10,036 bases of DNA from Eggerthellaceae bacterium. Its GTDB lineage: Bacteria > Actinomycetota > Coriobacteriia > Coriobacteriales > Eggerthellaceae. Shown here piece by piece: positions 4,986 through 9,168 of the stretch. Under the pieces are notes generated by a model. That model did no database searches. It had not been told where the DNA came from and saw nothing but the letters and a program-made list of their open reading frames with translations. The first letter of the stretch is position 1, and each line of letters starts with the position of its first letter. The stretch spans positions 403-10,438 of the forward strand of contig DMNP01000212.1 of NCBI GenBank assembly GCA_003452695.1, written 5' to 3'. A program made the translations under genes and the position numbers.

Positions 4986-6182
4986 ATGATTGGAATATCG
5001 AAACTGTACTGTGGGGCGGTAGAGCCCTCAGACGTGCTGCGCTACAAGCGCCGATCGGCGCAGCTGCCAAGCGGCCTGCTGCAATTCTCGCGCGACAAGA
5101 AGCCCGTCGTGGTGTGGAACTGCACGCGCACGTGCAACCTGAACTGCATGCATTGCTATGCAGGGTCGGACGCTCGGACCTACGACCAGCTGGACACCGA
5201 CGAGGCAAAGGCCATGATCGACGACCTGGCCGCTTTTGGGTCGCCCGTGCTGCTGTTCAGCGGCGGTGAACCGTGCATCCGCCCCGACTTGGTCGAGCTT
5301 ATGCGCTATGCCAAAGGCGCCGGCATGCGCGTGGTGCTGTCCACCAACGGCACGCTTATCACACCCGAGCTTGCCCGCGAATACGCCGAAGTCGGCCTGT
5401 CGTACGTGGGCGTATCCATCGACGGGGGGCCTGCCACGCACGACCGCTTCCGCGGCGCACAGGGCTCGTTCGCCCGCGCGATGGATGGGCTTGCAAACGC
5501 GCAGGAAGCCGGCATAAAAGTGGGCCTGCGCATGACTTTGAACAAGCTGAACTTCCACGAAGTGGACGACGTGTTCGACATCATGCGCGAACGCAGCATA
5601 AACCGCGCCTGCTTCTACCACCTGGTATATACCGGCCGCGGATCGGACATGATGCAGATGGACCTGGACCACGACGAGACCCGCGCCGTGGTGCGCCATA
5701 TCATGGACCGCACGCAGGAATGGTTCGACCAGGGCGGACGCCCGGAAATCCTTACCGTGGACAACCATGCGGACGGCCCCTTCATCTATTTGCAGCTGCT
5801 GCGCGAAAACCCCGAACGCGCCGAGGAAGTGCTGCAGCTGCTGAAATGGAATCAGGGCAATTCCACCGGCAACGGCATTGCCTGCATCAGCTGGGATGGC
5901 GAAGTGCACGCCGACCAGTTCTGGCGCCACTTCAGCTTCGGCAACGTGCGCAAGCGGCCCTTTTCCGAAATCTGGACCGACGTGAGCCGCGCGACCGAGG
6001 CCAGCGAGCTCATGTACCGCCTGAAAGACAAGCGGCCCTTCCTGAAGGGCCGGTGCTCCCGGTGCCAGTGGCTGGACATCTGCGGCGGCAACTTCAGGGT
6101 TCGCGCCGAAGCGGCCACGGGCGACCTGTGGGCAAGCGATCCGGCGTGCTATCTGACCGACGAAGAAATCGGGGTGCTGTAA
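4986..6182 (+). CDS. ahbC: 12,18-didecarboxysiroheme deacetylase AhbC
   Basis: Cytoplasmic radical-SAM enzyme of the siroheme-dependent haem pathway. It removes the two acetate side chains of 12,18-didecarboxysiroheme to give Fe-coproporphyrin III. The 398-residue length and the N-terminus MIGISKLYCG...EPSDVLRY match the family. The radical-SAM CxxxCxxC motif is Cys50-Cys54-Cys57 (TCNLNCMHCY), followed by the SAM-binding GGEP. C-terminal cysteines for an auxiliary cluster are Cys300, Cys357, Cys360, Cys366 and Cys388 (RCSRCQWLDICGGNFR). The start is set by AAGGA eight bases upstream and by the conserved N-terminus. The stop overlaps the start of the AhbD fusion gene (TAATG), implying translational coupling. 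Heme d1 NirJ and other SPASM proteins are relatives, but N-terminus and context favour AhbC. Confidence 0.93.
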   Translation: MIGISKLYCGAVEPSDVLRYKRRSAQLPSGLLQFSRDKKPVVVWNCTRTCNLNCMHCYAGSDARTYDQLDTDEAKAMIDDLAAFGSPVLLFSGGEPCIRPDLVELMRYAKGAGMRVVLSTNGTLITPELAREYAEVGLSYVGVSIDGGPATHDRFRGAQGSFARAMDGLANAQEAGIKVGLRMTLNKLNFHEVDDVFDIMRERSINRACFYHLVYTGRGSDMMQMDLDHDETRAVVRHIMDRTQEWFDQGGRPEILTVDNHADGPFIYLQLLRENPERAEEVLQLLKWNQGNSTGNGIACISWDGEVHADQFWRHFSFGNVRKRPFSEIWTDVSRATEASELMYRLKDKRPFLKGRCSRCQWLDICGGNFRVRAEAATGDLWASDPACYLTDEEIGVL

Positions 6183-8335
6183 TGACCCCATCAGCAGGAC
6201 ACTCCGACGGGCATCCGACAACCGGGCATCCGGATGGGCATCCCAGCGGGCATCCGGGCGGGCGCCCCGGCGGGCATCCGGGTAACGCATCCGGCAGCCG
6301 ACGGGCCAAACGCCCCGGCGCGGGACCCGCGGCGAAGGCCTTCGAGGAACGCACGGGCATAAAGGCCCCGCGCATCATCGCCTGGGAGATAACGCGCAGC
6401 TGCAACTTGGCCTGCGCGCACTGCCGCGCCGCAGCCCATTGCGACCCCTATCCGGGCGAGCTGTCGCTTGAAGAATGCAAGGCGGTGATGGACGACATCG
6501 CGTCCATCACCGACCCCATCCTCATCCTTACCGGCGGCGAGCCCCTTATGCGCCCCGACATCTGGGAAATCATTGACTATGCGCACGAGATGGGCCTGAG
6601 CCCGGTCATCGGCACGAACGGCACGCTCATCAGCGACGAGTGCGCCGCCCAGATTGCCGCGCACGGCATTCCGCGCGTTTCCGTCTCGCTGGACTTTCCC
6701 GATGCGGCCGGGCAAGATGCCTTCCGCGGGCGGGAAGGGGCCTTCGACGAGGCGCTGGCCGGCATCCGCAACCTCCGCGCGCACGGCGTGGGCGTGCAGG
6801 TGAACACCACTATAACGAAGATGAACCACCGACTCGTGGACGACATGCACGAGCTGGCGCTGTCCGAAGGCGCCGAAGCATTCCACCCGTTCCTGCTCGT
6901 GCCAACGGGCCGTGGCGAGGACCTGGTGGACGTGGAGCTTAGCCCCGACGAATACGAGGAAGTGCTGACCTGGGCATATCACTGCCAAAAGACCAGCCCG
7001 ATGCACTTCAAGCCCACCGATGCGCCACAGTACTACCGCATAATCCGCCAGCTGTCCGCCCGCGAGGGACGCGAAGTCACGCCCGAGACCTACGGCATGG
7101 AGGCCATGACGCGCGGGTGCCTGGGCGGCATCACGTTCGCCTTCATCAGCCACGTGGGCGACGTTCAGCCCTGCGGCTATTTCGACATGCAGCTCGGCAA
7201 CGTGAAGGAAACGCCCTTCTCGGAAATTTGGGAAACTTCCCCGGTCTTCGACGACCTGCGCCATTACGACCGGTTGCGCGGCAAATGCGGAGCCTGCGAA
7301 TACAAGGGCGTCTGCGGAGGCTGCCGCGCCCGAGCGCTTGCGACCACGGGCGACTACCTTGCCGAAGAGCCCTACTGCGCCTATGTTCCGCGCGCCGTCG
7401 CGCGCCAGCGCGTGCTGGACGCCATACAGAGCGGCTTCCCGCTGGAAAGCGATCCCTACGGGGTGCTCGCCGGCAAGCTGGGACTATCGCGCCAGCAAAC
7501 GATAGAAGCCGCCGAGGCCCTGCGCGGCGACGGCACCATACGCCGCATCGGGGCATCGTTCGCCTCGAACCGCCTGGGCTACGTATCCACGCTCTGCACG
7601 CTTCGGGCTGAAGGAGGCGAAGGCGAAATAGAGCGCATCGCCGGCTTGGTAAGCGCCCATCCGGAAACGACGCACAACTACCTGCGCGATGACGAATTCA
7701 ACATCTGGTTCACGCTGATAGCGCCCTCGACCGAACAGATCGACCGGGTCGTGCGCGAAATTCGCGAGAGCACGGGCTGCGACGAGGTGCTGAACCTTCC
7801 CATCCTGAAGACCTACAAGATAAACGTGGATTTCAGCGGGAAGCGCGCGGCCAAGGCGGACCCGGCATCCGCGCCCGCCTTCGACCCGGAGGACCCCTTC
7901 GACGTGGCGCTGGTCCGTTGGGCCCAAGGCGACGCCGCGGGCCCGGAGCCGTACGCCACGTGCGGCTTGGATGAGCAGCGCGCGCTCGAGCGGCTGCGCG
8001 AATGGAAGGCCAACGGGACCATCCGGCGCTTCGGCGCCTTCGTCGCGCACCGGAAGATGGGCTACGCCTTCAACGGCATGACGGTCTGGCACGCCGCAGA
8101 AGAGGACATCGACCGCATCGGCACCTCCTTCGCCGGGCTTTCCTGCGTATCGCATTGCTACAAGCGCGTGCAGCAGGAGAAGTGGCCCTACAACCTGTAT
8201 GCCATGGTGCACGCGCAAAGCCGGGAGGAACTGGACGCCTACATTTCCGAAATGCGCGCCCTGAGCGGCCTGGATTGCAAGACGCTCGTATCGCACAAGG
8301 AATACAAGAAGGCCGCGCCGGTCTACTTCGCGTAG
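6182..8335 (+). CDS. ahbDAB: AhbD-AhbA-AhbB fusion: haem b synthase plus siroheme decarboxylase
   Basis: A 717-residue polypeptide joining enzymes usually encoded by separate genes. Residues 1-34 are a His/Gly/Pro-rich leader. Residues about 50-403 are AhbD, the radical-SAM enzyme that decarboxylates the two propionates of Fe-coproporphyrin III to make haem b. It has Cys74-Cys78-Cys81 (RSCNLACAHC), GGEP, and C-terminal cysteines 313, 331, 369, 372, 378, 381 and 399 available for an auxiliary cluster. Residues about 404-553 are AhbA-like (Lrp/AsnC-type winged helix, RRIGASF, then THNYLR with His498). After a charged linker (554-571), residues about 572-717 are AhbB-like (RRFGAFVAH, then SHCYKR with His658). 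AhbA/AhbB together decarboxylate siroheme at C12 and C18. The winged-helix part of the AhbB half is about four residues shorter than the AhbA half. The start is the ATG overlapping the ahbC stop; I see no other in-frame start before the AhbD core. Confidence 0.92.
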   Translation: MTPSAGHSDGHPTTGHPDGHPSGHPGGRPGGHPGNASGSRRAKRPGAGPAAKAFEERTGIKAPRIIAWEITRSCNLACAHCRAAAHCDPYPGELSLEECKAVMDDIASITDPILILTGGEPLMRPDIWEIIDYAHEMGLSPVIGTNGTLISDECAAQIAAHGIPRVSVSLDFPDAAGQDAFRGREGAFDEALAGIRNLRAHGVGVQVNTTITKMNHRLVDDMHELALSEGAEAFHPFLLVPTGRGEDLVDVELSPDEYEEVLTWAYHCQKTSPMHFKPTDAPQYYRIIRQLSAREGREVTPETYGMEAMTRGCLGGITFAFISHVGDVQPCGYFDMQLGNVKETPFSEIWETSPVFDDLRHYDRLRGKCGACEYKGVCGGCRARALATTGDYLAEEPYCAYVPRAVARQRVLDAIQSGFPLESDPYGVLAGKLGLSRQQTIEAAEALRGDGTIRRIGASFASNRLGYVSTLCTLRAEGGEGEIERIAGLVSAHPETTHNYLRDDEFNIWFTLIAPSTEQIDRVVREIRESTGCDEVLNLPILKTYKINVDFSGKRAAKADPASAPAFDPEDPFDVALVRWAQGDAAGPEPYATCGLDEQRALERLREWKANGTIRRFGAFVAHRKMGYAFNGMTVWHAAEEDIDRIGTSFAGLSCVSHCYKRVQQEKWPYNLYAMVHAQSREELDAYISEMRALSGLDCKTLVSHKEYKKAAPVYFA
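6209..6280 (+). repeat. In-frame GGGCATCC repeats encoding a His-rich leader
   Basis: GGGCATCC occurs five times, at 6209, 6224, 6236, 6248 and 6272, each in the coding frame and giving Gly-His-Pro. They sit at the start of the ahbDAB gene. Irregular spacers (12-24 nt unit spacing, multiples of three) suggest growth by repeat slippage under selection to keep the frame. The encoded stretch has six histidines (7, 11, 16, 20, 24, 32). Confidence 0.85.
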
Positions 8336-8411: not shown

Positions 8412-8490
8412 GCCGAACCGCGCATTTCGTGCAATCTGATGCAGCGCGAGCGCGGAAATGCATCAGATTGCACGAAATGCGCGGTTCGGC
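8412..8490. repeat. Perfect 32-bp inverted repeat (79-nt hairpin)
   Basis: The left arm (8412-8443, beginning GCCGAACCGCGC and ending CTGATGCA) and the right arm (8459-8490) are exact reverse complements over all 32 positions, with a 15-nt GC-rich loop. A T5 run begins 10 nt after the stem (8501-8505). The size and perfection far exceed a normal terminator, and the ahb operon already has one at 8355-8378. It could be a dispersed palindromic repeat or MITE-like insertion, a structured small RNA, or a transcription block. I cannot test copy number here. Confidence 0.9.
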
Positions 8491-8591: not shown

Positions 8592-8617
8592 GTGCCAAAT
8601 CACACGACCCTTGGCAC
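8592..8617. repeat. Inverted repeat at the LytTR breakpoint
   Basis: GTGCCAA (8592-8598) and TTGGCAC (8611-8617) are perfect 7-bp inverted repeats with a 12-nt spacer. The right arm coincides with the place where recognisable regulator sequence begins. It may be the end of an inserted or excised element, or a regulator site; neither can be decided from one copy. Confidence 0.5.
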
Positions 8618-9168
8618 GCATACGCACGGTCGATCCCGACGTGATGCTGGCGTTCGTGACGACGAGCGGCGATTACGCCATGGCGGGTTACCGGGCGCGC
8701 GTGGAGCGCTACCTCCTGAAGCCTTTCCGGGACGAGGAGGCGCACGAGATCGTTGCAAGCGCGGCGCAAAGGGCCGGCCTGAAAACGGAGCACGGCCTCG
8801 ATCTTGCGGGAGAAACGATACCGCATTCCCGCATCCGCTTCATCGAGCAGAACAATCACGCGATCGTTATCCACCTGATGAGCGGCGGAGAGCGGAGGCG
8901 CAGGGCCAGGCTCGACGATATCGAGGCGAAGCTGCCGTGCCCTCCGTTCTACCGTTGCCATAAGAGCTACCTCGTGAACCTCGACCACGTAAAGAACATC
9001 GACCGAAGTCTGAACACGTTCGAGCTCGACGGCAAGGAGCGTGCCTACATCAGGCGAGCGAGCATGGCAGAAGCCCAGCGACTGTTCGAAGAGCGGACTA
9101 TAGAGCGCACGTTGCGGCTTGGAGAGGGCTCGGCGTCAGGGGTCGTATCGGTATCAGGGGCCATGTGA
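8611..9168 (+). pseudogene. LytTR-family response regulator, N-terminally truncated
   Basis: The sequence from about 8611 encodes the last part of a response-regulator receiver domain (DPDVMLAFVTTS, then the LLKPF lysine at residue 37) followed by a full LytTR DNA-binding domain (about 72-170), with ARLDDIEAKLP and RCHKSYLVNLDHV (111-127). The first half or more of the receiver, including the acidic pocket and phospho-acceptor Asp, is missing: the frame has a TAA at 8578-8580. No ribosome-binding site precedes the TTG at 8611. In intact relatives (AgrA/LytR type) the receiver controls DNA binding, so this copy is probably inactive, or at most an unregulated LytTR protein. The last 15 residues are Ser/Gly-rich and outside the domain. 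No histidine kinase gene lies nearby. Confidence 0.75.

Follow-up and report, generated by a model that had tools for sequence, protein, structure and literature searches.

A window of 10,036 nucleotides from an Eggerthellaceae bacterium (GenBank assembly GCA_003452695.1, contig DMNP01000212.1, positions 403 to 10,438 of the forward strand), by which we mean the whole stretch that was analyzed, carries genes of the Ahb heme pathway. Directly behind ahbC lies an open reading frame of 717 residues with zero inner stops, whose predicted product combines three enzymes that we refer to below as the fusion. When the translation was compared with NCBIfam profiles, residues 65-403 matched heme b synthase (AhbD; TIGR04545, 489.2 bits), residues 409-551 matched the alpha subunit of siroheme decarboxylase (AhbA; NF040708, 171.8 bits, above the cut-off of 140), and residues 593-711 matched the beta subunit (AhbB; NF040707, 184.5 bits, above the cut-off of 125). 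Pfam agreed, returning Radical_SAM, SPASM, a NirDL-like helix-turn-helix domain, and two stretches of AsnC_trans_reg2. The uninterrupted frame and the three matches in order bear out the initial annotation, which had described one AhbD-AhbA-AhbB chain with the AhbD/AhbA border near position 7391 (residue 404) and a separately encoded AhbC; the latter has its own gene, scoring above its profile cut-off (Table 1). For the AhbD part, TIGR04545 was the best of the related radical SAM models, with NirJ2 next at 335.6 bits. An identity as NirJ, the radical SAM protein of heme d1, was rejected on score (TIGR04051, 212.1 bits versus a cut-off of 515.45).

Table 1. Features of the ahbC-fusion locus, in window positions
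Feature	Positions	Strand	Evidence
ahbC, 12,18-didecarboxysiroheme deacetylase (radical SAM/SPASM), 398 amino acids	4986..6182	+	TIGR04546, 659.3 bits, cut-off 650
TAATG, one-base overlap of ahbC stop with start of fusion gene	6180..6184	+	sequence read
ahbD-ahbA-ahbB fusion gene, 717 amino acids	6182..8335	+	translation and profile matches
His/Gly/Pro-rich N-terminal tail (residues 1-61), with predicted disorder in residues 1-40	6182..6364	+	predicted local distance difference test (pLDDT) <50 for residues 1-40
AhbD domain (heme b synthase), residues 62-404	6365..7393	+	
Radical SAM cluster motif C74-X3-C78-X2-C81	6401..6424	+	cysteines in 138/138 AhbD rows
Asp280, aligned with the first auxiliary cluster I (AuxI) cysteine of full-SPASM AhbD	7019..7021	+	alignment of 138 AhbD rows
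SPASM cysteines C313, C331, C369, C372, C378, C381, C399	7118..7378	+	invariant in 54 fusions; spacing fits published motif
AhbD/AhbA junction; predicted continuous helix, residues 404-417	7391..7432	+	pLDDT
AhbA domain, residues 406-553, THNYLR at 497-502	7397..7840	+	NF040708
AhbB domain, residues 574-717, SHCYKR at 657-662	7901..8332	+	

The initial annotation also took all expected motifs to be intact. This held for CX3CX2C, THNYLR, and SHCYKR, all of which are present, and an alignment of 54 fusions showed C74, C78, C81, H498, Y500, R502, H658, and R662 to be invariant. Each decarboxylase half contains an HXYXR motif (HNYLR, 498-502; HCYKR, 658-662), of which the histidine and arginine are invariant in both halves and the tyrosine of the AhbB half varies. 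The AhbA-AhbB part has the paired AsnC-like fold. The claim did not hold for the SPASM region, where seven of the eight published cysteines are found and Asp280 occupies the first AuxI place. In the structure model, mean pLDDT at the junction was 94 for residues 401-410 and 93 for residues 411-420. Substitution rates were calculated between the window protein and six relatives, and the nonsynonymous rate (dN) was lower than the synonymous rate (dS) in AhbD, AhbA, and AhbB. The dN was 0.07-0.09 for AhbD and 0.28-0.42 for AhbA and AhbB, while dS for the enzyme parts was about 0.75 to 2.35, which is near saturation, and was undefined for AhbB in one pair. Looser regions by dN were the AhbA-AhbB linker (0.34-0.86) and the N-terminal tail (0.17-0.64). 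All three enzyme parts look constrained, with AhbD far more conserved. The intact frame in many genomes, the conserved catalytic residues, and dN below dS support the view, put forward from the start, that the gene is functional rather than decaying.

The full SPASM motif published for AhbD includes eight cysteines (PMC10452713). The AhbD of Methanosarcina barkeri (PMC10452713, PMC11306076), a separate protein, shares CX3CX2C and a C-terminal CX2CX5CX2CX17C with the fusion, where the latter motif is formed by C369, C372, C378, C381, and C399. The M. barkeri enzyme is described in those papers with all eight SPASM cysteines, C223 being the first AuxI ligand, whereas the window protein falls outside this full subgroup: it has seven, and Asp280 fits the published spacing of the first. 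Across 138 AhbD rows, this position is Asp in 90 (the window among them), while 46 rows have Cys and 2 have Glu; other clades carry TCAP at the first AuxI cysteine. The 90 Asp rows make up exactly one side of a tree branch (support 90). Since that branch holds fused and split AhbDs alike, the Asp trait is separate from the fusion. A Cys3-Asp auxiliary cluster in the Asp branch is possible, as judged from the alignment.

When 5.8 billion clustered proteins were searched, 1646 relatives came back, and in 109 of the best 120 of these AsnC_trans_reg2 stood beside a radical SAM domain. The initial annotation had presented the domain order as exceptional and called for a search for it; that search was run and found AhbD-AhbA-AhbB in 149 of 166 relatives, the best matches of two protein searches that favor candidates near the query length, so that the fused share is biased upward. 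The order is widespread in Coriobacteriia, including the isolates Berryella wangjianweii (L007), Gordonibacter sp. Marseille-P4307 (L013), Hugonella massiliensis AT8 (L015), Slackia exigua ATCC 700122 (L016), Coriobacteriales bacterium DNF00809 (L018), and Slackia heliotrinireducens (P0050). A metagenome-assembled genome titled S. heliotrinireducens (L023) has separate ahbD, ahbA, and ahbB genes and groups away from P0050; it is probably misnamed. Within one family of 138 genomes, 30 had a match at 1e-100, comprising 19 fused loci (including L106, cut by a contig end, and L099, with its front missing), 10 split loci, and 1 unclassed. A second group of fusions of about 650 residues, the gut clade, includes P0123, labelled Kiritimatiellia bacterium, and L027 (joined with tree support 98). 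Five more fused loci (L119, L121, L148, L149, and L150) came from sampling the wider taxa of the L027 genome: its class contributed 288 genomes, 45 of them with a match at 1e-70, and its phylum 387, 36 of them with a match. By the label of P0123, the fusion apparently occurs in a second bacterial phylum. The best 20 of 251 records in a plasmid search were all below 60% identity and mostly showed nirJ beside separate AsnC genes. The fusion is a recurring one, commoner than the initial annotation assumed. A misassembly or a shift of frame at the junction is ruled out for the architecture and has a negligible chance here, because the same junction recurs in many other assemblies and isolates and the window protein lies on three contigs, the longest of 25,910 bases, which are not necessarily independent assemblies.

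The same three enzymes have been reported in one composite archaeal protein, an ahbAB-ahbD fusion that five Methanomicrobia assemblies carry (PMC11237513, 2024). The likeness is in composition, and the available passages of that paper state neither the domain order nor residues or structure; the fusion described here differs in occurring in Coriobacteriia and in a gut clade that has a member labelled Kiritimatiellia, with ahbC nearby. No report of a bacterial AhbD-AhbAB fusion was found in literature searches at the title and abstract level, mostly outside subscription journals. Fused AhbA-AhbB has long been known (PMC4145669, PMC3942049). Unlike the present protein, neither the fused AhbA-AhbB found in most archaea that make heme nor the solved NirDL (4ch7, 4czc) has an AhbD domain attached. 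The AhbA/B heterodimer of Desulfovibrio desulfuricans (4czd, 4un1) shares the HXYXR motifs and matches the fusion in fold (42% identity to chain A, 33% to chain D), yet consists of two separate chains from two genes. Comparable in arrangement to the fusion gene are split pairs of other Coriobacteriia (for example, Curtanaerobium respiraculi, L040), which have the same gene order and 67% identity in the best segment and differ in having stop and start codons between AhbD and AhbAB.

The pathway context was examined in 20 genomes: 19 of Coriobacteriia (14 fused, 5 split) and the fused gut-clade genome G139. Each contained exactly two PF17805 domains (20/20), and CobA was found in 19. HemE was not found above its cut-off in any of the 20 (weak matches in 5, the best at 83.7 bits versus 302.95), nor was ChdC found in them. 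HemH-type ferrochelatase aside, terminal enzymes were found for no route other than Ahb. A HemH-type protein was present in 17 of the 20 genomes, including G001, G103, and G029 (L165, L166, and L167), and exceeded the TIGR00109 cut-off in both genomes checked. CbiK was found in 9. CbiX exceeded its cut-off of 22 in 6, barely (22.7-28.3 bits), at places that all lie inside CbiK matches. The HemH-type protein was the only chelatase found in 10 of the 11 CbiK-less genomes in searches for HemH, CbiK, and CbiX, with Met8/CysG-type proteins not searched and genome completeness not given; in the eleventh, G139, none of the three was found. Because HemE and ChdC were not found, the HemH-type enzyme may insert iron into sirohydrochlorin. 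The gene row of S. exigua (L168) reads hemA-hemC-cobA/hemD-ahbC-hemB-ahbDAB-hemL; no precorrin-2 dehydrogenase was found among the frames scanned in this row, and neither CbiK nor CbiX had a match in the S. exigua genome.

By homology, the AhbA and AhbB halves would pair within one chain, like the solved fused NirDL, and convert siroheme to didecarboxysiroheme. The separate AhbC, encoded by the overlapping upstream gene, would then yield Fe-coproporphyrin III, which the AhbD part would convert to heme b. The joining of the first and last enzymes of the pathway is explained by gene order, since ahbD and ahbAB adjoin. Among 133 distinct AhbD loci, which were sampled for their similarity to the fusion and have limited flanks, AhbA was seen in 92 (28 fused, 60 at most 400 bases downstream, 4 farther downstream, 0 upstream) and not in 41. 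In the split relatives, ahbD is directly upstream of ahbAB, and the junctions are ordinary, TAATG in L020 and TGATG in L022; L006 and L017, both read at base level, have ordinary starts of ahbAB after the ahbD stop. The M. barkeri locus tags as given in the available sources are consecutive for ahbD (A1458), ahbA (A1459), and ahbB (A1460), with ahbC apart (A1793). In the split loci L006, L017, L021, L026, L068, L076, and L077, the ahbAB frame begins immediately behind the ahbD stop; programmed read-through is not favored for them, as their stops vary (TAA, TGA), the frames are mixed, and the two read at base level have the ordinary starts noted above.

To follow the origins of the fusion, we used a tree of 138 AhbD rows, built by a quick method that gave long-branch warnings. 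The tree requires six changes of state from one form to the other (fused or split), and with fused rows set against all other rows, starred branches force five. In L020 and L069, ahbAB adjoins ahbD in an overlapping frame; with both counted as split, the changes stay six. In approximately unbiased (AU) tests of groups chosen after the tree was known, a single clade of all fusions (P0085 out, a split trio in) was rejected (p = 7e-76), indicating more than one origin. A joint clade of the gut clade and the main Coriobacteriia fusions (trio in, P0085 out) was not rejected (p = 0.24), and so one gut lineage may have passed an already formed fusion to another; nor was P0085 with the main Coriobacteriia fusions rejected (p = 0.42). 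An AU p value of 0.0008 against a joint group of the Coriobacteriia and gut-clade fusions was set aside as a sign of separate origins, because the group tested omitted the split trio and included P0085. That trio (L006, L020, and L022) is a 99% clade within the fused clade, with enclosing branches of 84-93 and stop/start overlaps in L020 and L022. Its placement suggests that it likely arose by re-splitting (gene fission).

We consider it fairly probable that the locus encodes a single protein uniting both decarboxylase halves with AhbD, that it arose by stop loss, and that it fixes a 1:1 ratio of the enzymes. Under this stop-loss origin, adjacent ahbD and ahbAB would have lost the intervening stop more than once in bacteria, with the main effect of keeping two enzymes together at equal ratio; direct hand-over of intermediates through AhbC would be possible and would not be needed. 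Several points weigh against this interpretation. All enzyme activities are assigned by homology, and the AhbD part is 10.8 bits below the NCBI naming cut-off of 500 for TIGR04545. Only one of seven other fusions checked passed that cut-off (S. heliotrinireducens, 502.7); three gut-clade fusions reached just 407.2-422.4 and three other Coriobacteriia fusions reached 471.3-484.2, and three split Coriobacteriia AhbDs (482.9-498.1) were likewise below 500. The number of origins is unsure: some apparent fusion events may instead be gene transfers or losses. The position of the split trio inside the fused clade means that the fused state is not essential. Finally, the predicted template modelling score (pTM) of the structure model, 0.82, gives no direct view of inter-domain error.

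It is somewhat unlikely that the stop was lost between neighbors with no functional gain and that both enzymes simply tolerate the result. Such neutrality would suit the presence of both states within a single family (10 split and 19 fused of 30), the apparent reversal to split, and an AhbD-AhbA linker that varies from 1 to 43 residues across 85 fusions and reaches 84 in L025. However, the fusion has more than one origin, and the junction is short, with a median gap between the AhbD and AhbA domain models of 2 residues in those 85 fusions and 0 in a further group of 64 (the groups being split by protein number, not taxonomy). The N-terminal tail was compared in the same groups: its His/Gly/Pro repeats (GHP, HPG, or HPS) occur in 40 of 85 first-group tails and in 0 of 64 second-group tails. 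From their composition, metal or heme binding by these repeats is possible.

A metabolon, in which AhbC docks on the fusion as a scaffold and the siroheme-derived products travel from AhbAB via AhbC to AhbD inside the complex, is doubtful. The overlap of ahbC with the fusion gene, the confident helix at the junction in the model, and the multiple origins of the fused state would be consistent with it, as would the copurification of Desulfovibrio AhbAB with its product didecarboxysiroheme (PMC4145669). By the same paper, though, M. barkeri AhbAB holds neither substrate nor product; moreover, gene order alone accounts for which enzymes joined, S. exigua has hemB separating ahbC from the fusion gene, and the trio within the fused clade is split. 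The fusion is real, functional-looking, and of more than one origin, and the complex with AhbC is hypothetical.

Heme itself could link the two ends of the chain if AhbD passed on some of its heme b and the AhbAB part bound this heme and was tuned by it. M. barkeri and Desulfovibrio vulgaris AhbAB copurify with heme, and heme redox state alters the activity of the M. barkeri enzyme (PMC4145669, PMC3942049). According to the available text, however, M. barkeri AhbAB is not inhibited by added heme, reductant is without effect for D. vulgaris AhbAB (PMC4145669), and PMC4145669 denies feedback inhibition, with the enzyme active while heme is bound. We regard this feedback as improbable. Very improbable is an extended form, a self-regulating synthase in which AhbAB would take heme b from the tethered AhbD as a redox signal, coupling product level to the first step, in a lineage with an Asp-AuxI AhbD and perhaps HemH-type iron insertion into sirohydrochlorin. 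The AU recheck and the statement in PMC4145669 make the feedback readings slightly less likely.

Just downstream of the fusion gene, a perfect 32-base inverted repeat (8412-8443 / 8459-8490) may be terminator-like or a mobile-element remnant. Beyond it, a 185-residue frame (8611-9168) has a LytTR DNA-binding domain and no Pfam receiver match; by its domain content, it looks like a truncated response regulator.

The fusion offers a single-chain system in which to ask whether heme-pathway enzymes act as a complex. Its close relatives include fused, split, and apparently re-split forms of natural origin, making the effect of tethering directly measurable, and the Asp-for-Cys branch of AhbD bears on the role of the auxiliary clusters.

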